Assembly (NCBI GenBank): GCA_012026785.1
Contig: VEOW01000002.1
Location: 1 to 54,849 of the forward strand
Source of the DNA: Chloroflexota bacterium
GTDB taxonomy: Bacteria; Chloroflexota; Limnocylindria; Limnocylindrales; CSP1-4
Direction of reading: 5' to 3'
Length of the DNA: 54,849 bases
Position 1 is the stretch's first letter, and each line of letters starts with the position of its first letter. Both the position numbers and the translations under genes were made by a program. Below the pieces are notes generated by a model. That model was given only the letters and a program-made list of their open reading frames with translations. It was not told the DNA's origin and did not search any database. This document shows, one piece after another, positions 8,211 through 45,252 of the stretch.

Positions 8211-8584
8211 GGGGATGCGTGGTCTCGACAGGGTCTGGCTGTCAGCGGACGCGAGCCGAGGTGCCGTCAGGCCTCGCTAAACAGGCGGCAAAACGAAGTA
8301 CCTGCCAACAAGCAGTCGACTCTCGCCCTCGCGGCCTAAGGCCGTAAGGTGAGCGTGGAAGCAGCCTCCGCCCCGCGGGCTGTGGAAGCGTCATGCAGCG
8401 GGGCTGCAGACCGGACGAGCGTCGCGTAGTCCGGGACCAAGCCCGATCTAGGGGAACGTGACTGGACCGCCGGGCAGGGTGCCGATCCTCGGCCCAGCGG
8501 TTGACGAAAACGATCGGACACGCTCGTAGTGGCTGCTGGCGAAGGGTCCTGGACGGGGAGTTCGACTCTCCCCCATCTCCACCA
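8211..8584 (+). ncRNA. ssrA: transfer-messenger RNA (tmRNA), CCA encoded
   Basis: 5' GGGGATGCGTGGTCTCGACAGG pairs with 3' CATCTCC-ACCA; T-arm GAGTTCGACTCTC; tag frame ending ...ANKQSTLALAA-TAA at 8339. Confidence 0.93.
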
Positions 8585-29094: not shown

Positions 29095-29871
29095 TCAGCC
29101 GAGGATCGGCGCGCCGCGCCGGAGGGCGCGCCGCGGCGAGGCCCACAGCCGCAGCCGGAGCGACCAGAAGTCGCGAACCGCGCGGAGGATGACCTGGGGC
29201 TTCGCGCCGGTCGGGCTGCCGGCCGTCCGCGGGTAGTGGGGCACCCCGACCTCGACGATCCGCCGTCCAGCCGCACCGAGCTTGATCAGCAGCTCGGCCG
29301 AGAAGAAGGCACCGCCCGATTCGACGTTGATGCCCTCCAGCGCCTCGCGCCGGAACAGCTTGCAGGCGCAGTCGATGTCTCGGACCCGGAGGCCGAAGAA
29401 GATCCGGTTGGCGAGCCGGTAGAGACGGGCGTAGAGCGTTCGAACCGGGGGGTCGGCCCGCTTGATCCGGTAGCCGGCGACGACGTCGGGCGTTCGAACC
29501 CGGTCGATCGGCTCGAGCATTCGATCGATCAGCCGGCCCAGGTCGGCGACCCTGAACTGGCGGTCGCCATCGGTGAACGCCAGGTAGCCGAGGCTCGCCG
29601 CGGCGAAGCCCGATCGAAGGGCCGCACCGTAGCCGAGGTTCGTCGGGTGGTGGACGGCCCGGACCTCGGGATGGGCCGCCGCCAGCTCGTCCGCGATCGC
29701 CGGCGTCTCGTCGCGCGAGCCGTCGTCGACGATGATGATCTCGAACCGTTCGGCGAGCTCTGGCAGGGCCCCGAGCGCCTCCTCGACGAGGCCGCGGACG
29801 TTGGCGGCCTCGTTGTGGGCCGGGAAGAAGTAGGTCAGCTCCGCCAGGCGCTGGGCCCGCGTGTCCCTCAC
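29095..29871 (-). CDS. glycosyltransferase family 2 (dolichyl-phosphate mannosyltransferase-like)
   Basis: LTYFFPAHNEAANVRGLVEEAL; IIIVDDGSRDETPAI; FTDGDRQF; overlaps next gene. Confidence 0.9.
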   Translation of the reverse strand: MRDTRAQRLAELTYFFPAHNEAANVRGLVEEALGALPELAERFEIIIVDDGSRDETPAIADELAAAHPEVRAVHHPTNLGYGAALRSGFAAASLGYLAFTDGDRQFRVADLGRLIDRMLEPIDRVRTPDVVAGYRIKRADPPVRTLYARLYRLANRIFFGLRVRDIDCACKLFRREALEGINVESGGAFFSAELLIKLGAAGRRIVEVGVPHYPRTAGSPTGAKPQVILRAVRDFWSLRLRLWASPRRALRRGAPILG

Positions 29872-31514
29872 GGCACGTCGTCCAGGCGGCCCCGGACCTC
29901 CCACAGGCCGGTGTTGCCGGCGCTCGCCACCAGGGCCATCTCGAAGCGGGCCTGCAGCTCCGGTTGGTCGCGCTCGAGGCGGATGACGAAGACCGGGCGC
30001 TGGCCGAGGTAGCGGTCGATGACGTCGGGGGCCCGGCCGAGGTTGAGATCGAGCATGGTGCGATCATCGACCACGAAGAGGTCGGTTCGCTGGCCCTCCA
30101 CGTGCTGGGCGTACCACAGCGGCGTCGAGGTGCTCCACCAGCTGATGACGACGGCGTCCTGGGGCAGGACCGGCAGGACCTCGTCGAGCCAGTGCCGGGC
30201 GGCCGTGTCGTTCGATCGGTCCGCCACGGCGGCGCGCGGCCCGAGGTCCGCGACGCCCGGCGCGAGCAGGGCCAGGCCGACGACGCCGGCGACGACCGCG
30301 CCGACCCGGTCCCAGCGTCGCGGCTCGGGTGGCGATCCCGGGACCAGCCGGCCGAGCGGGCCGCGGAGCCGGCCCTCGTCGTCGACGAGGGCGGTCGTGA
30401 GGAGGTTGGCGACCTCGGCCCCGAGGATCCCGAGCCACGTCCAGGCCCACAGCGCGGGGCCGAGGTAGTAGCGCTCGATGTCGGCATTGGAGTAGGAGGT
30501 GTTGAAGAGCAGCGTCGTGACCATCGCCACGCCGCTCAGGAGCGCGTAGGCCGGGACCCGCCGAGCGGCCACGAGGAACGCCAGCGGCACGACCGGCGCC
30601 AGCCAGCCGAGCTGGCGGGAGGCGAGCGTCACGATCGCGTCCAGCTTCCCGGGCAGGTTCGAGAGCGGATCGGCCAGCGAGCCCTGGAACTGCTGGGCCA
30701 GGGCGATGTACCAGAAGCCGTCCCAGGTGCCGGGCCGGCCATAGACGAGCGGCGCCGGAAGGACGCCCCCCCGGATTGGCAGCTCGAGGTAGACGAGCGC
30801 CAGCGTCCCGGCGCTGACCCCGAGGCACGCGGCGACGAACAGCGGCCGTCGCAGCAGCCCCGGCTCGACGGCGAGGACGAACAGCGCGATCGCCGGGGCG
30901 AGCAACAGGGTCAGGGAGTGGTTGCCGGCCGAGAGCCCGAACAGCGCCGCGGCGAGCAGGAGCCGGCGATCGTTGGCCGAGGTCTCCAGCTCGTCGCGAT
31001 CCTGCTGCCAGCGAACGAGGGCCAGGGTCAGCAGTGCCACGAGGGCCAGGTGAAGTGGGTGCGGATCGGCCCGGGTCGCGTTCAGCCACACGACCGGCGT
31101 GATGGCCAGGCCCAGGCCGGCCGCGAAGGCGACCGGCAGCCAGCCGGCGAGCCGGCGGACGAGGGCCATCGCCGCCACGGCCGCCACGGCCGTGAACAAC
31201 AGCGACAGGACGGTGACCCGGAAGGCCGGCTCGCCGAGGGGCGTCAGAAGGATCGTGCCGAGGAAGCCGAGGATGACGTAGGTCGGGTAGCCCGGCGAGT
31301 GGGCCGTGCCGAGGATCGGCAGCACGGTCTGGAACTCGCCGGTGTCCCAGAAGCCGATGCCGGGCATCAGGCCCGGCCAGCCGTTGGCGACGACCACGCC
31401 GAACAGCACGGCCCCGGGCAGGCCGCGCTGGGCGGCCTCGACCAGCCGCGTCCCGAGGGTCGGCGGCCGCTCGGCGATCGGGACCGCGGTCGCGGCCTCG
31501 GCGCTGGTCAGCAC
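29868..31514 (-). CDS. DUF2723-like membrane glycosyltransferase
   Basis: GFWDTGEFQTVLPILGTAHSPGYPTYVILGFLGTILL; many TM segments. Confidence 0.8.
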   Translation of the reverse strand: MLTSAEAATAVPIAERPPTLGTRLVEAAQRGLPGAVLFGVVVANGWPGLMPGIGFWDTGEFQTVLPILGTAHSPGYPTYVILGFLGTILLTPLGEPAFRVTVLSLLFTAVAAVAAMALVRRLAGWLPVAFAAGLGLAITPVVWLNATRADPHPLHLALVALLTLALVRWQQDRDELETSANDRRLLLAAALFGLSAGNHSLTLLLAPAIALFVLAVEPGLLRRPLFVAACLGVSAGTLALVYLELPIRGGVLPAPLVYGRPGTWDGFWYIALAQQFQGSLADPLSNLPGKLDAIVTLASRQLGWLAPVVPLAFLVAARRVPAYALLSGVAMVTTLLFNTSYSNADIERYYLGPALWAWTWLGILGAEVANLLTTALVDDEGRLRGPLGRLVPGSPPEPRRWDRVGAVVAGVVGLALLAPGVADLGPRAAVADRSNDTAARHWLDEVLPVLPQDAVVISWWSTSTPLWYAQHVEGQRTDLFVVDDRTMLDLNLGRAPDVIDRYLGQRPVFVIRLERDQPELQARFEMALVASAGNTGLWEVRGRLDDVP

Positions 31515-31535: not shown

Positions 31536-32999
31536 TCACCACCCGAGGATGTTGCCCCAGATGACGCCCCACAGGTTGATCGCCACCGATGCCCCGATCA
31601 GCCACGCCCCCAGCAGGCCGACGCCGTTGCGACGGGCCATGCCGAGGGCCACGAGGATCGCGCCGAAGACGACGAAATCGTTGCTGAAGCGGTACCCGAA
31701 CTGGACCCAGCCCTGGCTGAAGTGCATGAGGTTGACGAAGGCGATGGCGAGGATCGCGCGCCAGGCCCCGGCGACGAGCCGGCTTCGACCGCGCAGCAGG
31801 GCCGGCAGCGCGAGGAGGTAGGCCGGGCTCGTCAGGAGGATGCTCATCCCGATCGGCCGCGGCGCCGCGAGCGGGCAGGCCGGGTCGAACAACCCCCGGG
31901 TGGCACCCGGCTCGGTGCACACGGGATCGCCGTCGCCGAACGGCCCGGGCAGCCGGTCGGGCAGGATCGCCGGGGCCGACGCGAACATGACCCCGACGTT
32001 CTGCGGCAGGTAGCGCGGGTCCTCAATGCTCCACTCGGGGTGGTAGCCGAGCGCCGCATAGCCGGCGGCCTCGCGCTGGTACTGGTACTCGTAGCCCGGG
32101 TGGAACAGGTGGCCGGTCGTGGCGACGTTGTAGGCCAGCAGGAGCCCGATCGGGATGGCCGCGCCGAGGCCGGCGGAGACCGACCGCCGGGTCCACGACC
32201 CACCACTCCCGACGAGCATGAAGAACGGCGCCGCGAAGACGACCGTCAGGCGGGCGGTGCAGGCCAGGCCGAACAGCAGGCCGGCGACGAACTGGCGACG
32301 GTCGAGCAGCTCGAGCGGACGGCGGACGGCGGCGACGACGTCGCCGGCAAGACGAGCCGGCGCCGGCGAGGCCTCCACCTCTTCGTCGGCGGTCGGGTCG
32401 AACCGCAGCGCGATTCCGACGGCCAGCAGGGTCAGGTCGACGGCCACGACGTGGGCGAAGAACCAGGTCGTGCCGAGCTGCGCGGCGTACCAGAACACGG
32501 TCCCGAAGCCCAGGAACACGGTCGTCGCCAGCCGGATCGTCCGGGAGACGGGCAGCTGGCCGAAGACGCGCCAGGCGAGCCACACGCCGAGGACGCCGGC
32601 CGCCACGGACACCGCTCGAATGTCGGTCGCGCGCCCCCACAGGGCCACGAAGGGCACGAGGACGACCGCCGGCAGGGGCGGGAACGGCAACAGCGCGCCC
32701 CGTGGGTTCGGGTCCCCGGTCAGCTCCCGCAGCGGATAGACGTCCTGCATCCAGTCGTTGCCCCACGGGAACCCTCCGCCGTCGACGGGCCAGTCGATGA
32801 CGGCCGTGCCCCGGAGGAAGGCCTCGGCCTGCCACACGAAGTGGTTGTAGTAGCGGTCCGAGCCGGGCAGCCAGAACGCGCCCAGCGCCAGCACGACGAG
32901 CACGACGCCGGGCACGAATGCCGGCAGCAGCTCGATCAGGGTGGCGATCCGATCCGAGGGCCGGGAGCCCACGGCGCCCTGTGCTACGCTCCCACCCAC
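31536..32999 (-). CDS. integral membrane GT-C-like protein
   Basis: Multiple TM segments; SDRYYNHFVWQAEAFLRGTAVIDWPVDGGGFPWGNDWMQDVYPL; GTG start at 32999 (alternative 32972). Confidence 0.7.
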   Translation of the reverse strand: MGGSVAQGAVGSRPSDRIATLIELLPAFVPGVVLVVLALGAFWLPGSDRYYNHFVWQAEAFLRGTAVIDWPVDGGGFPWGNDWMQDVYPLRELTGDPNPRGALLPFPPLPAVVLVPFVALWGRATDIRAVSVAAGVLGVWLAWRVFGQLPVSRTIRLATTVFLGFGTVFWYAAQLGTTWFFAHVVAVDLTLLAVGIALRFDPTADEEVEASPAPARLAGDVVAAVRRPLELLDRRQFVAGLLFGLACTARLTVVFAAPFFMLVGSGGSWTRRSVSAGLGAAIPIGLLLAYNVATTGHLFHPGYEYQYQREAAGYAALGYHPEWSIEDPRYLPQNVGVMFASAPAILPDRLPGPFGDGDPVCTEPGATRGLFDPACPLAAPRPIGMSILLTSPAYLLALPALLRGRSRLVAGAWRAILAIAFVNLMHFSQGWVQFGYRFSNDFVVFGAILVALGMARRNGVGLLGAWLIGASVAINLWGVIWGNILGW

Positions 33000-33028: not shown

Positions 33029-36000
33029 TTGACAGGTCCCGCAGTCGGTGGGCCCGACCCGGGCAGGGGGGCTCCGTCGCGGACCGGGGCAGCGTCGCGG
33101 ACCGAGGCGGCGGACGCCACGTGGGGCATCCTGATCCTCCTGGCCGTTGGGCTCGCCCTTCGGCTCATCATCGCATACCTCCTGCCCGACTCCGGATTCC
33201 GGGTCGACATCAGCTCGTTCCAGTTCTGGGCGAACGAGCTGGCGGACAACGGCATCCCGGGCTTCTACGCTCGCGCTGCCGATCCCGTCACGGGCTTCTT
33301 CGCTGACTACACGCCCGGCTACCTGTACGTTCTGTGGGCCGTCGGGACGGTGGCCAACGTCCTCGGGATGGCCGGGCCCGGCGAGCTCATCAAGATCCCG
33401 CCGATCCTGGCCGACCTCGTCCTCGGCTACCTCGTCTGGTCGATGGCCCGCGAGCTCGGGGCCGGCGAGCGGGCGGCCCGGGTCGGCGCACTCCTCGTGG
33501 TCCTCAACCCGGTCACGTGGGTCGACAGCACGATCTGGGGCCAGGTCGACTCGGTCGGGCTGATTCCCTTGTTGCTGGCCGTGCGGGAGCTGTGGCGCGA
33601 CCGGCCAGAGCGGGCGGCGGTCCTGGCGATGGTCGCCGCCCTGATCAAGCCCCAGCTCGGGATCCTCATCCCGATCGTGGCCGTCGTCACGATCCGCCGG
33701 GCGCTCATGCCCAGGGGGGCATACGGCGAGGACGATCCCGATCCCTCGACCTACAGCCGGACGGCCTTGGAAGCCCGGATCCGCGGGCCGATCCGGATCC
33801 TCACGACCGGCGCCGCCGGGCTGCTGACGGCGCTCGCCCTGTCCCTCCCGTTCGGGCTCGGCCTGCCGGGCCTGATCGGCCAGATCTTCTCGACCGCGGC
33901 CGGGTACCCGTATCTCTCGGTCAACGCCTACAACCCCTGGGCGCTCGTCGGCCAGGCCCGACCGGATGGCGGCGTCGATGGCATCGCGGTCAACCGCCAG
34001 TGGGTCTGCGATTCGACGACGGTGCCGCGCGAGGCGTTCGACATCCGGATCGGCGACTGGCTCCTGTACCACGTGCCGGCGCCCCCACCCGACGCGCGTT
34101 GCATCGGCGATCCGGGGGTCACCTTCGGGGCGCTCCCGGCGGTCGCCGTCGGGGCCCTGCTGCTGCTCGCGGCGGTCGCGATCGTCGCGGCCGTCGTGTG
34201 GCGCCGACCCGACCGCCGAACGATCCTGGTCGGCCTCGTCGTGCTCAGCGTCGCGTTCTTCGTGCTGCCGACGCGGGTCCACGAGCGCTACCTGTTCCCG
34301 TTCGTCGGGATCGCCGCGATCCTCGCCGGGGCCTCACTCCGCTGGCGGGTCGCGTACGTCCTCGGCAGCGCGGCCGTCTTCGCCAACATGTACGCCGTGC
34401 TGACGACGCTCTACACCGACAACCCCGGCATCTCGGACTGGTTGGGGATCGGGCCGCTGCTCACCTCCTACTGGGGCGTCGCCGCGGCGGCCGCGGCGGT
34501 CACCGCGGTCTTCGCCTGGGCCGTGCTCCAGCTTCGGGCCGAGGCCGACGAGCAGCTCGCCGACGAGCTCACGGCCAGCGCGGACGAGCCCGGGGACGAG
34601 GAGCTCGAATTCGAACCCTTGCCGGAGCCGGCAGCCCCGACGGTTGGCTGGGGGGCGCCGACGGCAACCGCATTCGAACCCGTCCGTCCGGGTCCCCCGG
34701 CCGGGCCGCCTGTGCCAAGCACGGGCCTTCCGCCCGCGGCCGGCGCGCTGGCGCCCGCCTGGGACGAGCCGGGGCTCGCGGGCGAGGGGCCGTGGGCCTG
34801 GTTCGTCGCCCGGTTCCGCGCCCGGCCCGTGCGCGCCGACCGGACGGCCGGCCTGTCGAACGAGCGGGGCGGCCGCTTCGACAAGCTCGACGTCTGGATC
34901 CTCGTGGTCCTCGCGATCGCCATGCTGAGCATCCGACTGTGGCGGTTGCCCGAGCCGTACCAGATGCACTTCGACGAGGTCTACCACCCGCGGACGGCGA
35001 CCGAGTTCCTGCAGGACTGGCGCTACGGCATCGACCACAACATCTACGAGTGGACCCACCCCCACCTGGCCAAGTACGCGATGGCCCTCGGGATCATGGC
35101 CTTCGCCGACGACCGGGTCGTCGCCACGAGCCGGCTCGGGCAGGCCGTCGTCGACGCCACGATCGAGCCCCGCCGCGACGACACGCTCGCCGGCGCCCCG
35201 CTCGAGGGCGACCGGCTGTGGGTCGCGACCGGGAGCCAGGTTCTCGGCTACGACCTGCGCACCCGCGAGCTCACCGCGACGGCCGACTTGCCGGGCGTCG
35301 TGGCCGTCGCGATCGAGCGGCCGCTCGCCCGGCTGTATGCCGCCACCCGGAGTGGCGAGATCCTCGAGGCTGATCTCGGCCCGCTCGACGCGACGCGCGG
35401 CCAGGGCGTCTCCCCCCTCGACCTGCGCGACCTCCTCGACCTCGGCGCGCCGATCGAGGCGCTGTTCATCACGACCGACGGCAGCCGCCTGGCTGCGGTG
35501 CTCGCGCCGTCCGCCGAGGACGCCGCCGTCCAGGAGGTCGTGACGATCGACACGGGCGCCGGCACGGTCGTCGGCCGGACCGAGCTGACCGGGGTGACCC
35601 AGCTCGCCGACGGCGGCCAGGGCCGAATCGCGATCGCCACCGCCGAAGGCCTGGCGTTCATCGATCCCGAAACCGGGGAGGTCGGCGACCTCGTCGACGT
35701 CGAAGGCCCGGCGACCGGCGCGGTGAAGACGAGCGGCATCAGCGACGACCCCATCCTCGTGCCCTATTCGGCCGCCGACGGGCCCCGGGTGGCCGTCGTC
35801 ATCGCCAAGCCCGACGAGACACCGCGGGTCAGCACGTCCTTCGTGCTCCCGGGCACCCGGGCCGGCCGGGCGTTCTTCGACACCGCAAGCCGGATGGTCC
35901 ACGTCGAGGGCTCCCGCCCCGACCAACCCGGGACGACGACGGTCTACGTCATCGAGCCGCACGGAAACCCACCGACTGTGTACGCCGACGCGGCGCTGCC

Positions 36001-38311
36001 GTTCGAGCCGGTCGCGATCGTCCTCGACGACAACGAGCGCTACCCCTCGAGCGATCGCCAGCAGCTGCTGGCGCTCGATGCCGGCGGCGAGGTCGCCGCT
36101 GTGCCGATCGGGCGCCATGCCTTCGCCTGGCGCCTGCCGGGTGTCGTCGCGGGCGTCCTCATGGCGCTGAGCCTGTACCTGCTCGCCCGGATCCTGTTCC
36201 GGCGCCGCAGCATCGCGGTCATCGCCGGCCTGCTGGCCCTCGCCGACGGGATGCTGTTCGCCCAGAGCCGGATCGGGATGAACGACGCCTACGTCGGGCT
36301 CGGCATCGTCGCGGCCTACATGGTCTTCGCCGCGCTGTGGCTGCGGCCGCCACGGGGTGCCCGCGGTTGGCTCGCCTTCGTCTTCGGGATGCTGGCCGTC
36401 GGCCTGCTGCTCGGGCTGGCGCTGGCCTCGAAGTGGGTCGCCGCCTACGCCATCGGCGCCCTCGGCGTCCTGGTCCTGTCACGCAGCGCGCTCGGCCGGC
36501 TGCTGGCGATCCTCGGTCTGATCGTCGCGTCGACGGCGCTCGGCTACCTCGCGATCTCGGTCCCCGAGGGCGAGACCGGCGGCAACTACCTGTTCCTCGC
36601 GATCATGGTCGCCCTGACGCTCGCGGGCGTCGTCGCCAACGTCGCCCACCCGATCGCCTGGACCCTCGAGGAGCAGCGCCTCGCGACCTTCGCGGCACCC
36701 GTCGCCGGGGGGCTGGCGCTGCTCGTCGGAGCCGCCCGGGGCGATCCGCTCGCCCCGCTCGACCTCGGGCCGCTGGCCGTCACCCCGCTGGAGCTGGCCA
36801 TCGCGGGCCTCGTGTTCGGAGCGGCCGTGCATACGGGCTTCGTGATCACCGGCCGCCTCGGCTTCGGGCCGCTCGCGCAGGCCGCCGGACCCGGCGAGCC
36901 CGGCGCGGCCCTCGATCCGCCGGCGCCGGCCCCGACCGGCTGGCTGCGACTGGGCAGCGGCTTCGGGCTGCCGGCCGCCTGGCTGGCGATCTGTCTCGTC
37001 GTGGTTCCGGTGGCGGTCTATGTCGTGTCGTACATCCCGTGGGCCTTCATCGAGAACCACCAGCTCATCGAGGGCTGGCCGGCTGGTCACACCGGGCAGA
37101 CGCTCATCGATCTCACGGCCGACATGTACAACTACCACAACCGTCTGAGCTCGGCCCACCCCGCGTCGTCGCCGTGGTGGGCGTGGCCGTTCGACCTGAA
37201 GCCGGTGTGGTTCTACCAGGAGAGCTTCGCCGGCGGCAGCGCGGGAGCGATCTACGACGCCGGCAACCTCGTCGCCTGGTGGCTGGCCGTGCCGGCGCTG
37301 GCGTTCGTGGCCTGGCAGGCCTTCGCCCGGCGCAGCCCCGCCCTCGCACTCATCGCGATCGCCTTCGCCTTCCAGTGGCTGTCGTGGGCCCGGATCGCCC
37401 GGGCGGCCTTCCAGTACCACTACTACACCTCGCTGCCGTTCGTCTTCCTGGCGCTGGCCTACTTCCTGGCCGAGTTGTGGCACGGGCCGTCGCGCCGGAC
37501 CTGGCTCCTCGCGCGCGTCTCAGCCGGCCTGGCCGTGCTGGGGCCGTTCACCCTGTGGCTGCTCCACCGGCCGCTGTGCGCGGTCGTGCGGGTCACCGAC
37601 GTCAACCCGGGCTCCCAGGCCTGTCCGACGGTCATCCCCGAGATTCCCGTCGCGCCCGGGGCGCTGGCGCTCGCGATCGTCCTGGGGATCGGCGTGCTGT
37701 TGCTCCTGCGGGAGCTGCTGGCGCTCGCCGACGAGGCGGATGCGGCGTCACTCGAGGGCGGGGCCTGGGGCTCGGCCGGGTTCCGGGACCGCCTCCGCAC
37801 GACGATCCTCGTCGGCGCCGGCGTGGTTGTCGCGGTCGGGTTCGTGACGGCCTTCCTGCGGGGCGGTGAGACGATCAACATCCCGAACGTGCCGGTCGAG
37901 CCGATCGCGCTGGTGGTGCTGCTGGCGCTGTCGCCGGTGGCGGCGTATGTCGCCACGGCGCGAGATTCGCGTCGGTTCGTGATCGGCGCGCTGCTGGCGA
38001 TCGGCGTCTGGTTCGTGCTGTGGTACCCGAACATCAGCGGCCTGCCGATGCCCTCCAACCTCCACAACGCCTACCAGGGCTTCCTGCCGACCTATCTCTA
38101 CCCGTTCCAGTTCCCGGTCAGCACCCTCGACCGCTCGGTCGATGCACCCTCGCTGTTCGACGTGGGGCCGGCGATCATGCTCCTCGCGATCGCCTTCACC
38201 GCCCTCGTGGTCGGCTACTCGACCTGGTCATGGCGGGTCGCCCTCGCCGAGCGGCGCCTCGAGCGCGCGGCCGCCACGGGAGCGCCCGGCGTACCGGCCG
38301 CCCCGGAGTAG
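33029..38311 (+). CDS. giant tandem GT-C protein: N-terminal GT-C domain + C-terminal PMT-like mannosyltransferase with a propeller-like insertion in loop 1
   Basis: SD AGGAG before TTG 33029; first module VDISSFQFWANELADNG...NPVTWVDSTIWGQVDSVG; second module MHFDEVYHPRTATEFL...EWTHPHLAKYAMALG then ~370-aa soluble insert then FAWRLPGVVAGVLMALSLYLLARILF...DGMLFAQSRIGMNDAYV. Confidence 0.85.
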   Translation: MTGPAVGGPDPGRGAPSRTGAASRTEAADATWGILILLAVGLALRLIIAYLLPDSGFRVDISSFQFWANELADNGIPGFYARAADPVTGFFADYTPGYLYVLWAVGTVANVLGMAGPGELIKIPPILADLVLGYLVWSMARELGAGERAARVGALLVVLNPVTWVDSTIWGQVDSVGLIPLLLAVRELWRDRPERAAVLAMVAALIKPQLGILIPIVAVVTIRRALMPRGAYGEDDPDPSTYSRTALEARIRGPIRILTTGAAGLLTALALSLPFGLGLPGLIGQIFSTAAGYPYLSVNAYNPWALVGQARPDGGVDGIAVNRQWVCDSTTVPREAFDIRIGDWLLYHVPAPPPDARCIGDPGVTFGALPAVAVGALLLLAAVAIVAAVVWRRPDRRTILVGLVVLSVAFFVLPTRVHERYLFPFVGIAAILAGASLRWRVAYVLGSAAVFANMYAVLTTLYTDNPGISDWLGIGPLLTSYWGVAAAAAAVTAVFAWAVLQLRAEADEQLADELTASADEPGDEELEFEPLPEPAAPTVGWGAPTATAFEPVRPGPPAGPPVPSTGLPPAAGALAPAWDEPGLAGEGPWAWFVARFRARPVRADRTAGLSNERGGRFDKLDVWILVVLAIAMLSIRLWRLPEPYQMHFDEVYHPRTATEFLQDWRYGIDHNIYEWTHPHLAKYAMALGIMAFADDRVVATSRLGQAVVDATIEPRRDDTLAGAPLEGDRLWVATGSQVLGYDLRTRELTATADLPGVVAVAIERPLARLYAATRSGEILEADLGPLDATRGQGVSPLDLRDLLDLGAPIEALFITTDGSRLAAVLAPSAEDAAVQEVVTIDTGAGTVVGRTELTGVTQLADGGQGRIAIATAEGLAFIDPETGEVGDLVDVEGPATGAVKTSGISDDPILVPYSAADGPRVAVVIAKPDETPRVSTSFVLPGTRAGRAFFDTASRMVHVEGSRPDQPGTTTVYVIEPHGNPPTVYADAALPFEPVAIVLDDNERYPSSDRQQLLALDAGGEVAAVPIGRHAFAWRLPGVVAGVLMALSLYLLARILFRRRSIAVIAGLLALADGMLFAQSRIGMNDAYVGLGIVAAYMVFAALWLRPPRGARGWLAFVFGMLAVGLLLGLALASKWVAAYAIGALGVLVLSRSALGRLLAILGLIVASTALGYLAISVPEGETGGNYLFLAIMVALTLAGVVANVAHPIAWTLEEQRLATFAAPVAGGLALLVGAARGDPLAPLDLGPLAVTPLELAIAGLVFGAAVHTGFVITGRLGFGPLAQAAGPGEPGAALDPPAPAPTGWLRLGSGFGLPAAWLAICLVVVPVAVYVVSYIPWAFIENHQLIEGWPAGHTGQTLIDLTADMYNYHNRLSSAHPASSPWWAWPFDLKPVWFYQESFAGGSAGAIYDAGNLVAWWLAVPALAFVAWQAFARRSPALALIAIAFAFQWLSWARIARAAFQYHYYTSLPFVFLALAYFLAELWHGPSRRTWLLARVSAGLAVLGPFTLWLLHRPLCAVVRVTDVNPGSQACPTVIPEIPVAPGALALAIVLGIGVLLLLRELLALADEADAASLEGGAWGSAGFRDRLRTTILVGAGVVVAVGFVTAFLRGGETINIPNVPVEPIALVVLLALSPVAAYVATARDSRRFVIGALLAIGVWFVLWYPNISGLPMPSNLHNAYQGFLPTYLYPFQFPVSTLDRSVDAPSLFDVGPAIMLLAIAFTALVVGYSTWSWRVALAERRLERAAATGAPGVPAAPE

Positions 38312-38835: not shown

Positions 38836-40020
38836 TTAGGCCGCGGGCACGGCGAGGCGCGGGTCCGATGGGACGTCGGCGTGGAAGCTGGAAGGGAGCT
38901 GGTTCTGGGCGGCGAGGCGGCGGATGACGAAGCCGTAGTACTCCTCGACCTTGGCCGTGACGCGCTCCCAGCTGTACTCCTCGGCGCGCTCGAGCCCCGA
39001 GCGGGCCATCGACTCGCGCAGCTCGTCGTCGGCGAGGACCTGGGCGAGGGCGGCGGCAAGGGCCTTGGGCTTGTGGGGTGGGACGAGCAGGCCCTCGCGA
39101 CCGCGCCGGACGACGCCCTTGTAGCCGTGGATGTCGCTGCACACGATGGCGGTGCCGGCGGCCATCGCCTCCAGCAGGACGATCCCGAACGACTCGCGCC
39201 CGGTGGCGGGCGAGCAGTAGACGTCGGCGGTCTTGAACAGCGCGTCGCGCTCCTCGTCGGTGACCCGGCCCAGGAACTCGACGTTCCCGAGCTTGCGGGT
39301 CTGGAGGTAGCGCCGGGCCTCCTTGGCCTGCGGCCCGGCGCCGACGACCAGGAGCCGGCAGTTGCAGCCGGTCCGGCGCAGGATCCGGTAGGCCTTGAGC
39401 AGGTCGAGGAGCCCCTTGCGCGGCTCGAACCGACCGACGAACAGGATGTTCTTGGTGCCGTCCTGCCAGCGCGCGATCGGCACGGCCCGGGCGAAGCGGG
39501 CGGTGTCGACGCCGTTGGGGATGACCTTGTAGTCGCCCGGGAAGTAGCGGTCGATGAAGTGCCGGGCGGCGGCCGAGACGGCGATCCGGCCGTGGAGACG
39601 GCGGGCGTAGCTTCCCAGGAACCGCGACCCGAACTCGTAGGCCGGTGAGAAGCCGCCGTAGGCATGGAAAGTCCCGATGTTCACGCTCGTCGACAGCCGC
39701 AGCGTGACCAGCGACAGGAACGGCACGAACGGCTCGTGGAAGTGGAGCAGGTCGAACTGCTCGCGCTCCAGGACCTCGCGCACCTGCGACAGGTAGCGCG
39801 GCGAGACGGTCACCGTGCCGACCGAGCCGTTCGAGGGAACGGAGATGCCCTTGCCGATCCGGATGACGTCGCCCTCCGAGGCGCGCTGCAGGCCGTGGCT
39901 GCTGGTGATGATCCGGACGTCGTGCTCGCGCAGCCGGAGGTTCTCGTAGAGGTAGCGGACGTGCTGGTTGACGCCGCCCGGGAGCGGATAGACGTACGGC
40001 GTAACCAGCCCGATCTTCAC
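38836..40020 (-). CDS. GT4 glycosyltransferase, PimA-like (phosphatidylinositol mannosyltransferase candidate)
   Basis: GTG start 40020: KIGLVTPYVYPLPGGVNQHVRYLYENL; NGSVGTVTVSPRYLSQVREVLEREQFDLLHFHEPFVPFLSLV; NGVDTARF; GRESFGIVLLEAMAAGTAIVCSDI; recalled similarity to mycobacterial PimA. Confidence 0.85.
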   Translation of the reverse strand: MKIGLVTPYVYPLPGGVNQHVRYLYENLRLREHDVRIITSSHGLQRASEGDVIRIGKGISVPSNGSVGTVTVSPRYLSQVREVLEREQFDLLHFHEPFVPFLSLVTLRLSTSVNIGTFHAYGGFSPAYEFGSRFLGSYARRLHGRIAVSAAARHFIDRYFPGDYKVIPNGVDTARFARAVPIARWQDGTKNILFVGRFEPRKGLLDLLKAYRILRRTGCNCRLLVVGAGPQAKEARRYLQTRKLGNVEFLGRVTDEERDALFKTADVYCSPATGRESFGIVLLEAMAAGTAIVCSDIHGYKGVVRRGREGLLVPPHKPKALAAALAQVLADDELRESMARSGLERAEEYSWERVTAKVEEYYGFVIRRLAAQNQLPSSFHADVPSDPRLAVPAA

Positions 40021-40838
40021 GATGCCTGGCCCTCGCCACCGCCCCGGACCGGCGCGAGCACCAGCTCGCCGGACCGCCCGTGGGGTGGATACCCGAGGTC
40101 GCGGCGCGTGCCGTCGCGCCGCAGGCGGCCGCCCACCTCGGCCCGGACGTCGCGGCCGTACTTGCGCAGCTGCTTGCCGAACGTCCCGACCTGGGCGCCC
40201 GGCGGGTGGAACGAGCCGTGGTGATGCGTCGTCCGGGCCAGGATGGCGGCCCGGAGGTCCTCGGCGGTGCGACCCGGGAAGGTCGTGTAGCCGATGCCGA
40301 TGGCGGCGAGCTCGTGGGCGTCCGAGTTGCCGAGCCGGGCGAGCCCGTGCTCCTCGGCGAACCGGACGACCTTGCCGTGCCACGGCCGCCCGAGGGTCGT
40401 CGGGTTGAACGCCTCGATGCCATCAGGCCAGAACCGATCGTCGTCGCCCAGCAGCCGCCGCAGGACGAAGCCCTGGGCGCACAGCGGATAGGGCACCAGC
40501 GGATGGGCCGGAATGGCCACCCCACCCTGGGCGTGGACCTCGGCGATCGTCGAGCGGAGCGAGCGGAACGGCTTCACCCGCTCCTGCAGCCACAGGCCCA
40601 GGAGGTGCCCGCCGAGGGTCGTGATCTCCTCGCCAACGACGACCTCGAACGACAGGCCTCGATCCTCGGCAATCCGCCGCCCGGCGAGCGCGGCATCGAT
40701 CCGCTCGTGGTCGGTGATCGCGATGACGTCGAGGTCGGTGTTGCGCTCGACATGGTCGAGGACCTCGACGACGCCGGCCGTCCCGTCCGAGGCGAGGGTG
40801 TGGATGTGGAGGTCGGCTCGACCCAGCCGGGGCGTCAT
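40017..40838 (-). CDS. PHP domain phosphoesterase
   Basis: RADLHIHTLASDGTAGVVEVLDH; VIAITDHERIDAAL; AHPLVPYP; NSDAHEL. Confidence 0.9.
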   Translation of the reverse strand: MTPRLGRADLHIHTLASDGTAGVVEVLDHVERNTDLDVIAITDHERIDAALAGRRIAEDRGLSFEVVVGEEITTLGGHLLGLWLQERVKPFRSLRSTIAEVHAQGGVAIPAHPLVPYPLCAQGFVLRRLLGDDDRFWPDGIEAFNPTTLGRPWHGKVVRFAEEHGLARLGNSDAHELAAIGIGYTTFPGRTAEDLRAAILARTTHHHGSFHPPGAQVGTFGKQLRKYGRDVRAEVGGRLRRDGTRRDLGYPPHGRSGELVLAPVRGGGEGQAS

Positions 40839-41854
40839 GCGGCGATCTCCGGCGCAGGTGCCTGGCGACGGTTCCGCCGCCGCCGCCCACCCGTCGCCGT
40901 GGCCCCCTCCGCCAGGTCGTCCCAGATCGGGTGGAAGACGGCCTGCCACTGCTCGGGGGCCTCGGCGACGTACTCCTCGAAGGCCCGCGCCTCGGCCTCG
41001 AGGTAGGCCTCGACGCGGGCTCGACGGGTCGGACCCTCCGGGATGGGCACCGGTCCGCCGCGGGCGTGCTGGATGCCGTCCTTGGCCTGCCACGTCCCGA
41101 AGCCCCGGGGCACGGCGCCGGTCTCGAGGGCCAGCAGGGCCGGTCCGGCGGGGAGGCGTGCCGGATGCCCGAACAGGGACGTCTCGCTGCCCCCACCGGT
41201 CAGGTCCCGATCGGCGACGAGCCCGACCGGCTGGCCGCGCCGGAGCGCGGCGGCGAGCTCACGGCGGGCCGCGACCAGGTCGACGAGACGGACGCCCATC
41301 CGCTCTCGCGAGGCGACCAGGAAGGCCTGGAGGTCGGGATCGCCGACGACCTCGGTGGGCACGACGCCGGGCCGGCCGGATCGGCGGATGAAGTAGAGCG
41401 CGGCGAGCTCGAACCAGCCGAGATGGAGGCCGACGAACAGCACGCCGTTGGGATCGGCGAGCGCGTCCGGGACGAGCTCCGGCGTGTCGACGACGAAGCG
41501 TCGCTCGACGTCGGCGGGCGACATGGCGTCGGCCCGGGCGAGCCGGACGTAGTAGCGCGCCGCGTGCCGGAAGGCGTCCCGGACGAGGCGGTTGAGCGCC
41601 GCCGCGTCGGTCGCCGCGGCCCAGCGCGCCGGATCCCCCTGGTGCGTCGCGGCCATCCACGCCGCGATCCGGGCGAGGTTCCGCCGCGCCAGGCGGCGCC
41701 GCTCGGGCGCGAGGCGGTACCAGACATCTCCGACGAGGTCCGCCGCGGCCAGCAGCGGCCGCTCCGGCAGCCGCGCCAGGAGCCAGGCTCCAGCGACGAG
41801 CGCGCGGCCGCGCAGCCGGCGGATCCACGAGGGTCGCGGCGCCGAGGCGTCCAT
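40835..41854 (-). CDS. LpxL/HtrB/PatA-like acyltransferase
   Basis: LFVGLHLGWFELAALYFIRR (HX4E motif), VGLVADRDL, GPALLALETGAVP; ATG 41854 overlaps upstream stop. Confidence 0.88.
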   Translation of the reverse strand: MDASAPRPSWIRRLRGRALVAGAWLLARLPERPLLAAADLVGDVWYRLAPERRRLARRNLARIAAWMAATHQGDPARWAAATDAAALNRLVRDAFRHAARYYVRLARADAMSPADVERRFVVDTPELVPDALADPNGVLFVGLHLGWFELAALYFIRRSGRPGVVPTEVVGDPDLQAFLVASRERMGVRLVDLVAARRELAAALRRGQPVGLVADRDLTGGGSETSLFGHPARLPAGPALLALETGAVPRGFGTWQAKDGIQHARGGPVPIPEGPTRRARVEAYLEAEARAFEEYVAEAPEQWQAVFHPIWDDLAEGATATGGRRRRNRRQAPAPEIAA

Positions 41855-42867
41855 CAGCCGGTGGCGAGCCCTTCCGCCGCTGTCCCGAGGGCCGGGTGCC
41901 CCTCGACCGCACGTCGCGCGAGCTCGGCCCGCTCGGCCTCGGTCTCGGGCCACTGGGCCTTGAAGCTGTACCAGTGCTCGGGGGCCGCGGCGATCGCCGC
42001 CTCCAGGGCATCCGCGATGGCCTGGGTCGCGCGGGCGATCTCGGCCGGCTCGGTCGACGCGACGCGCATCGGCTCGCCATAGCTGATCTGGTAGCTCTTG
42101 CTGTCGGCCGAGCGACGAATCGCGATGTGGACGATGTCGGCCCCGGTCCTCGCGGCCAGGACCGCCGGACCGGCGGGCAGGGTCGTCCAGGCGCCGAACA
42201 TTCGAACCGGGACGTCGTCGGGCTTGTAGCCCCAGTCGACGATGAGGGCCAGGACCTCGCCGCGCTTGAGGATCGAGTACAGCTCGCGGAGGCGCCGCCA
42301 GGGGATCATTCGAACGCCCCACGTCTCACGCTGCTTCGTGAGATGTTCGAACAGCTCGGGGAAGCTCGTGTCGTCCGCCACCGCGGCGATCGGCCAGCCG
42401 TGACGGGCGATCCCGCGAGCGATGCCCTCGAGGTTGCCGATGTGGCCGGTCGTGAGGATCAGCCCCCGGCCCGACTCCTTCCAGTACGCCTCCAACGGCA
42501 GGAGGTTGGAGGTATCGACGAGCGCCTCGGCCTCGTCGTCGGACAGCCGCGGCAGCCGCATCAGCTCGACGACGTAGCGGGCGTACGAACGGTAGGCGCC
42601 CAGCGCCCGTCGCCGGACCTCGAGGCTGCCGGGCGACTTGCCGGTCACGTGGGCGAAGTTGACGTGGACCGAGCGGCGCTTCGAGGGCACGAGGAAGAAC
42701 GACAGCTGGAGCATGAAGGCCACGATCCAGCGCGCGATCGGGACCGGAAGGCTGCTCAGGATCCACGCCCCGAGGCGGTAGACGTAGACCGCCGAACGCT
42801 CGATCGGACGGGGGCCCTGAGGCCCCCGCCGATGGGGTGCCTTGATCGGTCGGCCGCTTGAGTTCAC
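41854..42867 (-). CDS. LpxL/HtrB/PatA-like acyltransferase (second paralogue)
   Basis: [18 protein letters not shown] (HX4E motif), [37 protein letters not shown]. Confidence 0.88.
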
Positions 42868-44135
42868 GCCCCGGTCGCCGCCTTGGGGCCGGTCGGCGCG
42901 GGCGTCGCCCCGGCCTGCGCTGCCGTCGACGGCCGTGCCGCCAGCTTGCGGAGCGTCCGCTTGACCGGCTTCTCGGTCCCGACGAGCGTCTCGTTGTCGT
43001 CGCCGCGGATGAACGCCTCGACGCGGTTGAACGCGATGTCGTCGTGGATCTGGATCGGCGGGCTCTTCATGAAGTAGCTCGACGGGGCCACGAGCGTGCC
43101 CTTCAGGCCGCGATCGAGGCCCAGCTTCAGGCAGCGGATGGCGTCGGTGATGACGCCGGCGCTGTTGGGGCTGTCCCAGACCTCGAGCTTGAGCTCGGCG
43201 TTGAGCGGGACGTCGCCGTAGGTCGTGCCCTCCATCCGGATGTAGCACCACTTCCGGTCGAGCAGCCACGGCACGTGGTCCGACGGCCCGACGTGGACGT
43301 CGTCGTCGCCGAGCTCGTAATCGAGCATGCTCGTGACGGCGTTGGTCTTGCTGATCTTCTTGGACTCGAGCCGCTCGCGCTCGAGCATGTTGAGGAAGTC
43401 GGTATTGCCGCCGAAGTTGAGCTGGTAGGTGCGATCGAGGCGAACGCCGCGGTCCATGAACAGGCGCGTCAGCACCCGGTGGCTGATCGTCGCGCCGACC
43501 TGGCTCTTGATGTCGTCGCCGATGATCGGCAGGCCCTCCTCGGCGAAGCGGCGCTGCCAGTACGGCTCACGGCCGATGAACACCGGGATGGCGTTGATGA
43601 AGCCGACGCCGGCGCGGAGCGCCTGCTCGACGTACCACTTCGTCGCCTCCTCGCTGCCGACCGGCAGGTAAGAGACCATGACGTCGACCTCGCGCTCCTG
43701 GAGGATGCCGACGATGTCGGCCGTCGGGCCGGGCGCCTTCTCGATGATCTGGCTCAGGTACTTGCCGAGGCCGTCGTGGGTCATGCCGCGCTCGACGGGC
43801 ACGCCCATGTGGGGCACCTGCTGGAAGACGTAGGTGTTGTTGGGCTTCTGGTAGATCGCCTCGGACAGGTCTTTGCCGACCTTGTTCTTGTCGACGTCGA
43901 AGGCGGCCACGAACTCGATGTCGCGGATGTGGTAGCCGCCGAGGTTGACGTGCATCAGCCCCGGGACGAAGTCGTCGTCGTTGGCGTTCTCGTAGTAGTA
44001 GCGGCCCTGGACGAGGCTGCTGGCGCAGTTGCCGACGCCGACGATCGCGACGCGGATCTTGCCGTCCTTGCGACGGGCAGCGCCGGCCCAGGTGTTGGTC
44101 GGCGTGTGGCCGTTCTTGCCGTTGGTCTTGGCCAT
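42864..44135 (-). CDS. ino1: inositol-3-phosphate synthase
   Basis: [65 protein letters not shown]. Confidence 0.95.
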
Positions 44136-44206
44136 GCTGTGGTCTCCCTGGTGCTCCCGTTGTGGATGTGCGTTCGAGGTGGTTCCGTGATCTGGGCGCG
44201 TCCGGC

Positions 44207-44836
44207 TCAGCCCTCCTTCAGCTGTTCGCGGACATGGAGGATGCGCTGGGCGGTCGTGATGGCCGCCAGCGCCGCGATGACGAGCAGGGCCAGCCCGAGC
44301 CAGGCCTGGCCGAAGCCAAGGACGCCGCTGGGGATCCCGGCCAGTACGAGGCCGGCCGCGAGGAAGACGAGGCGAATCTCGCGCGGGGCGAAGCCGACCT
44401 CGCCATGGAGGCCGAGCGATTCGGCCTTGGCCCGGGTGTAGGTGACCATCGAGGCGAACGTCAGCGCCAGGCCGGCGAGGATCACCCCGACCGTGAACTG
44501 GGCGGCTGCCGCGCCGATCGCGATCCCGGCGTAGACGAGGTTCTCGCCGGTCCGATCGAGGGTCGAGTCGAGAAAGGCCCCGAAGCGGCTGGCCTGACCG
44601 GTCGCCCTCGCGAGCGCGCCGTCGAACAGGTCGAAGATCCCGAAGGCCAGGACCATGACGCCGGCCACGAGCCACGCCTGGCCGGCCGCCGCGAGCGCGG
44701 CGACGCAGGTCCCGAGGAAGCCGATGATCGTCAGGGCATTGGGCGTCAGGCCGAGGCGGCCGAGGCCGCGGGCGATCGGCGTCGCGAGGTCGCGGACCCG
44801 CTGGCGCGTGGCGGGCGACACGAACGAGCCGGTCAC
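44207..44836 (-). CDS. CDP-alcohol phosphatidyltransferase (phosphatidylinositol-phosphate synthase candidate)
   Basis: CDP-OH-P motif [30 protein letters not shown] 44836 overlaps ArsR stop. Confidence 0.9.
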
Positions 44837-45252
44837 GAGGCCGTCTGCTCGCGGGTCCGACCGATGCCGAGGACCCGCCGGTCGTGGTCGGCGAAGCGCT
44901 CGAAGGCCTCCGGGAGGAGCCTTGAGACCGTCTCTCGGCCGACCCGCCGCGTCTCGATCAGACCGGCGCTTCGAAGGCGGCCGAGGTGCCACGACACGAG
45001 CGGCTGCGACAGCCCGACCTGGTCGATGAGCTCCGAGACGCTCGCGTCGCCCTTGGCGAGCCGGCGGACGATCCGCAACCGGTTCACGTCGGCCAGGGCC
45101 TTGTGGACGAGGCGCAGGGCGCGCAGCTCCTCGGGCGGGTCGACGACCGCGGCGAGGGTGGTTCGAATGTGGGCGGGGGATGGGGCCACGACGGGGCGCT
45201 CCGGCGGCTTCGTTGTCCGGCAGACGACTTCTGGTCGGCCGGCTTGGATCAA
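44833..45252 (-). CDS. ArsR family transcriptional regulator
   Basis: [68 protein letters not shown] start at 45252 uncertain. Confidence 0.88.

Follow-up and report, generated by a model that had tools for sequence, protein, structure and literature searches.

Bacterial protein O-mannosyltransferases (PMTs) have been described without a bulky soluble domain, and what makes up for the absence of the MIR domain in them has been posed as an open question (PMC12331936). The window analysed here, meaning the whole 54,849-nucleotide stretch of contig VEOW01000002.1 from a Chloroflexota bacterium, raises this question from another side: what kind of enzyme is encoded by the forward-strand gene at 33029..38311, an open frame without stops that has full-length relatives, and what might the soluble domain within it do? 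The original prediction was of a ~1760-aa tandem GT-C enzyme with a propeller-like domain inserted into a PMT, and the uninterrupted open reading frame (ORF), with support for both modules, agrees with it. Read from the N-terminus, the ~1760-aa protein has a first GT-C module, then a linker rich in Pro, then a PMT (GT39-type) module that carries the insert. The stop-to-stop frame spans 1836 aa, reduced to 1797 aa if translation begins at ATG 32918 and to 1760 aa from 33029. Because ATG 32918 would overlap the divergent gene at 31536-32999(-), GTG 33026 or TTG 33029 is preferred as the predicted start codon, with an uncertainty of a few codons.

The window's assembly is fragmented and of metagenome type, with 260 contigs, and so large a frame could in principle be an artefact, either a misassembly fusing two genes or a spacer without a fold. 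Against this, dozens of independent assemblies carry the same uninterrupted ORF; a search of 60 relatives gave a match in 57, mostly as single long ORFs, and those from independent assemblies are intact, range from about 1140 to 1900+ aa and carry the insert at the same place. Misassembly was rejected on these grounds, and with a confident propeller fold and the inserted PMTs forming one clade, the probability of an artefact of either kind is vanishingly small. The architecture, a tandem GT-C protein with a loop-1 propeller, is certain for practical purposes.

The identity of the second module as a PMT holds as family membership. In Pfam, the C-module scored above cut-off for PMT, from residue 1029 (E 4.5e-9; 36.7 bits, cut-off 22.7), and for PMT_4TMC (E 4.7e-11; 43 bits, cut-off 32.4), and these profiles, together with the motifs, assign it to the PMT (GT39) family. 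The NCBIfam model PrMnsylTfPmt (NF058602) gave 36.3 bits (E 2.9e-9), far short of an 800-bit cut-off that defines the actinobacterial equivalog and not the GT39 family as a whole; on sequence grounds the protein is a relative and not an equivalog. Among 14 control genomes PMT_4TMC found a match only in Corynebacterium glutamicum, and in its own genome the window protein is the sole match.

The motifs quoted in the original prediction were all located, FDEVYH at residue 648, HPHLAKY at 677 and AFAWRLPG from 1031. FDEVYH (34970..34987, +) contains the loop-1 catalytic DE motif (D649), the D and E of which are invariant in 45 sequences and align with FDEV of the solved fungal Pmts. HPHLAKY (35057..35077, +), recognised by motif scan and alignment, starts the second loop-1 helix, and the insert begins after it. 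Beyond the insert, TM2 of the PMT module (WRLPG..., 36128..36196, +), delineated by hydropathy, charges and the Pfam PMT match, has RRR after it on the inner side. SRIGMND (36266..36286, +) holds a second conserved acidic residue, D1086, which is invariant in the 45 sequences, matched in alignment by the R....D of solved Pmts and equivalent to MtPMT D176. The PMT_4TMC region (37100..37576, +), placed by its Pfam match and by alignments to Pmt4, includes PWWAWP (residues 1382-1387) and R1458-x-x-F1461. Across the 45 sequences D649, D1086, R1458, F1461 and PWWAWP are invariant or nearly so, and most align with the solved fungal Pmts; R1458 and F1461 are themselves invariant; what aligns them with the solved Pmts is a stretch below threshold, together with the motif itself. 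Mutagenesis of MtPMT has demonstrated a need for D74, D176, R441 and an aromatic residue at 444, as well as for residues in EL4, W362 and P396 among them, and its EL4 PW.WP element has been linked to peptide recognition (PMC12331936). The counterparts in the protein studied here are D649 for D74, D1086 for D176, R1458-x-x-F1461 for the R441/Y444 pair and PWWAWP for the EL4 P/W residues; ScPMT1 likewise has F at the R-x-x-Y/F position.

Hydropathy and alignment place ~340 non-membrane residues between HPHLAKY (677) and WRLPG (1034). A soluble insert between HPHLAKY and TM2 had been anticipated at ~370 aa; its presence stands and its size is revised to ~340 aa (residues ~692-1030; 35102..36118, +), a predicted extracytoplasmic stretch that is missing from non-inserted PMTs. 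AlphaFold2 modelling of this stretch from a 60-sequence alignment, followed by Foldseek, was the check that the original prediction had put forward, and it returned a compact and confident propeller (pLDDT 93.1, pTM 0.92), with 27 strands, a number that fits seven blades, and no helix longer than 5 residues. Against the PDB, the top matches were seven-bladed WD40 propellers (probability 1.00, E 4e-12, TM 0.63-0.68), and on these models the insert is predicted to be a member of the beta-propeller superfamily, with four-stranded blades in a radial array, its position in PMT loop 1 being given by alignment. Modelled whole, propeller included, the C-module reached pLDDT 84.8 and pTM 0.88; the 50 Foldseek matches listed for it were essentially all propellers, and so uninformative on the PMT core. 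The window's insert alone, as a single sequence, had no match in Pfam; across 60 homologues many propeller families matched weakly, and the insert profile matched solved propellers including YncE. The propeller is thus visible only through family-wide profiles and structure prediction. It has its fold and this weak profile similarity in common with WD40 and YVTN (YncE-like) propellers, but is only 9-15% identical to them, and is embedded in the loop of a membrane enzyme. A MIR or carbohydrate-binding trefoil was rejected as a candidate for the insert, with no Pfam MIR match and a predicted propeller fold, and a search of plasmids for the propeller found none.

Per-column conservation in 35 class sequences identified EPHGN (35954..35968, +) as the centre of the propeller's most conserved stretch (Y-V-I-E-P-H-G ... 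Y-A-D-A); outside the EPHG patch the insert is variable, and the conservation of the patch could be structural. Some members of family f1 have longer inserts (e.g. L124:7294-8544 and L098:8226-9476), with ~70 extra residues inside the propeller, the profile of which resembles the N-terminal part of a penicillin-binding protein (4ovd, E 1.9e-7). The window's protein is without this extra segment.

By charge count, basic residues lie on the inner side of TM1 and TM2, and the insert is acidic (51 D/E to 26 K/R); because of these flanking positive-inside charges and the acidity of the insert, the propeller and loop 1 are placed outside. This arrangement is distinct from that of the PMTs with which it was compared. 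MtPMT (Rv1002c) and its actinobacterial relatives (GT39) share the GT-C fold, the DE of EL1 and the second Asp of EL2, the R-x-x-aromatic motif of EL5 and the PW.WP of EL4 (PMC12331936), but MtPMT is a single module without a bulky soluble domain, whereas here there is a ~340-aa EL1 propeller and a fused N-terminal GT-C module. Eukaryotic PMT1/2/4 and POMT with MIR have the same type of catalytic module and, likewise, one large extracytoplasmic beta domain. As the original prediction had noted, however, MIR sits in a different loop, LL4, between TMH7 and TMH8 (PMC7759382), and is a beta-trefoil, where the present protein has a propeller, carried by loop 1 between TM1 and TM2. The protein is not a MIR-domain PMT, the type defined by a beta-trefoil in loop 4. 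A fused GT-C pair with a loop-1 propeller was not seen among the protein mannosyltransferases compared, and the literature searched yielded nothing relevant on a PMT with a beta-propeller, or on Limnocylindria with a mannosyltransferase.

Propellers, and WD40 propellers above all, are classic docking folds, and the insert's best Foldseek matches are of that type. It could accordingly be read as a platform for protein-protein docking, whether at the Sec exit, with neighbouring GT-C proteins or with a dimer partner, that makes no contact with the acceptor; three further GT/GT-C genes are conserved alongside, and MIR domains also aid PMT dimerisation (PMC12331936). Insertion right in the catalytic loop argues instead for an effect on the active site, and any docking partner is hypothetical, which leaves a pure docking role quite improbable.

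An architecture search in Chloroflexota, a second check proposed at the outset, covered 399 sampled genomes and confined insert-covering matches to the window's own class, Limnocylindria, a class that has been described together with its families CSP1-4 and Limnocylindraceae (PMC13212565). Outside the class only the stretch from TM2 onward matches, in ORFs of 538-755 aa, and these ordinary Chloroflexota PMTs have a short loop from E/HPPLxK to GWR: HPPLGK to SRIGTND spans 68 residues in one of them (L172), compared with about 400 in the inserted protein. Within the class, PMT_4TMC is found in 81 of 83 genomes, usually once and in a long fused ORF, and in families f1, f2, f3 and f5 the fused protein is usually the genome's sole PMT_4TMC protein. 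Genomes of family f4 (L187-L193) have, beside the fused protein, an extra ordinary PMT of 495-534 aa without a propeller. In a tree of PMT cores from which the insert had been removed, all 36 inserted proteins form one clade (100/97), with the ordinary f4 PMTs far from it on their own long branch. In a scan of all GTDB species with the conserved loop motifs (356 hits), the 80 best loci were all from Chloroflexota, with Candidatus Limnocylindrales and Candidatus Aquidulcis among them. The inserted architecture arose once, and is class-wide in Limnocylindria. A whole bacterial class therefore has a PMT with a different soluble domain in a different loop, joined directly to the catalytic loop, and with a fused second GT-C module. 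Since non-inserted homologues occur elsewhere in the phylum, and in some cases in the very genomes that carry the inserted protein, removal or swapping of the domain can probe the role of a soluble domain in PMTs.

The N-terminal GT-C module (residues ~30-503; 33116..34537, +) is weakly like GT87 and ALG6/ALG8, and its invariant elements are a first-loop Asp (D60) and the DY.P.Y and WGQxD motifs. Pfam GT87, which we take to be the family associated with PimE, matched 23 of 37 N-module members at E<=1 (best 2.6e-6), and Alg6_Alg8 did about as well (22 of 37, best 1.3e-6). The window member's own GT87 score of 21.2 bits lies below the curated cut-off of 25, and against solved structures in the PDB the N-module profile gave only spurious matches, with none to PimE. 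Similarity to the GT87 and ALG6-ALG8 (GT57) GT-C enzymes, PimE among them, is at the level of profiles and of the invariant first-loop Asp; those enzymes differ in being separate proteins. The linker to the PMT module (34535..34876, +), predicted from composition and charge count to be cytoplasmic, is acidic and Pro-rich (19 Pro in 114 aa), with a basic stretch at its end before TM1. In one relative (L048, G030:C67), a divergent second copy with a 3001-aa frame, roughly 900 extra residues lie between the two GT-C modules; it retains the DE motif and the propeller (FDEVLYG, HPPLSKE).

Synteny was counted over 80 loci, many of them incomplete; in most complete loci the gene sits between a polyprenyl-phosphate-sugar-synthase-like gene and a phosphatidylinositol (PI)-mannoside-like operon. 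The former is a GT2 (29095..29904, -; 49/80 loci) that resembles polyprenyl/dolichyl-phosphate sugar synthases (Pfam GT2 4.3e-27; DPM synthase 5mlz 3.4e-9). Its best NCBIfam match, PpgS (5.3e-15), is far below cut-off, and it resembles synthases of the GalNAc, mannose and formamido-arabinose types to a comparable degree. It adjoins the gene across families f1, f2, f4 and f5, and likely supplies the lipid-linked donor. On the same strand are a TMEM260-like GT-C protein (29868..31514, -; Pfam 5.6e-28; 43/80 loci) and, as the divergent neighbour, a further multi-spanning GT-C-like protein (31536..32999, -; 51/80 loci) with a weak match to the NCBIfam LA_3751/LA_3752 family (4.6e-5). TMEM260 is a eukaryotic O-mannosyltransferase, and its relative here may be a second protein-mannosylating enzyme.

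The convergent neighbour is a PimA-like GT4 (38836..40383, -; 50/80 loci), probably translated only from about residue 118 of its frame. It matches PimA in the PDB (4n9w/2gej) at E 4e-66 and with 227 bits, against 85 for the next family of solved GT4s. The rest of the operon (40835..44992, -), assigned from NCBIfam best matches, Pfam and synteny, encodes two PatA-like acyltransferases (48/80 and 43/80 loci), an inositol-phosphate synthase (36/80) and a phosphatidylinositol phosphate synthase. With a PHP phosphoesterase as well, 38836-44992(-) amounts to a near-complete PI-mannoside-like set, conserved in Limnocylindria. The conserved neighbourhood suggests that this uncultured class mannosylates proteins and makes PI mannosides; the literature searched yielded no paper that links PI mannosides with Chloroflexi.

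This operon, which would suit a lipid acceptor equally well, favours, together with the GT87 similarity of the N-module, the main rival reading, in which the tandem enzyme would act on a lipid or cell-wall glycan (PI mannosides or a lipomannan-like polymer), with the propeller binding the growing glycan and not proteins; the extra ordinary PMT of f4 could then do the protein work. Several observations count against it. The C-module is of PMT type, down to PMT_4TMC and the EL4 PW.WP that is linked with peptide recognition in MtPMT, and is usually the sole PMT_4TMC protein of f1, f2, f3 and f5 genomes. Distant families, moreover, keep the GT2, and PIM-like genes were not found in their examined flanks. 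A lipid or glycan substrate is accordingly considered unlikely.

The reading that we favour, at a probability of roughly one half for the full model including the N-module's role, is that of a bacterial protein O-mannosyltransferase, present across the class, whose propeller handles the acceptor; its activity, sugar and acceptor, and the roles of propeller and N-module, are what we infer from the features above. Both GT-C modules would work at the membrane's outer face, fed with polyprenyl-phosphate mannose from the neighbouring GT2, and the PMT module, through D649/E650, D1086, R1458 and the EL4 PWWAWP, would transfer mannose onto Ser/Thr of exported proteins. The propeller, anchored between TM2 and the second helix of loop 1, would lie over the active site, where it may bind or position the exported acceptor or an already mannosylated chain, and so play from loop 1 the part that the MIR beta-trefoil plays from loop 4 in eukaryotes; MIR binds mannose and influences processivity (PMC7759382). 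The analogy would be functional and not homologous, as fold and loop differ. The fused GT87/ALG6-like N-module probably extends the first mannose, much as the separate PimE of M. tuberculosis adds to a mannose placed by PMT (PMC12331936). A more specific proposal, offered tentatively and perhaps doubtful as a whole, is that one polypeptide both starts and extends an O-mannan on exported proteins, with an independently acquired loop-1 propeller that stands in for the eukaryotic MIR domain by holding acceptors that are mannosylated or rich in Pro; this convergent solution would have become fixed when the class arose. If true, such a polypeptide would represent a convergent answer to how bacterial PMTs cope without MIR.

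Elsewhere in the window, a tmRNA gene is present at 8211-8584 (+), with the tag peptide ANKQSTLALAA.
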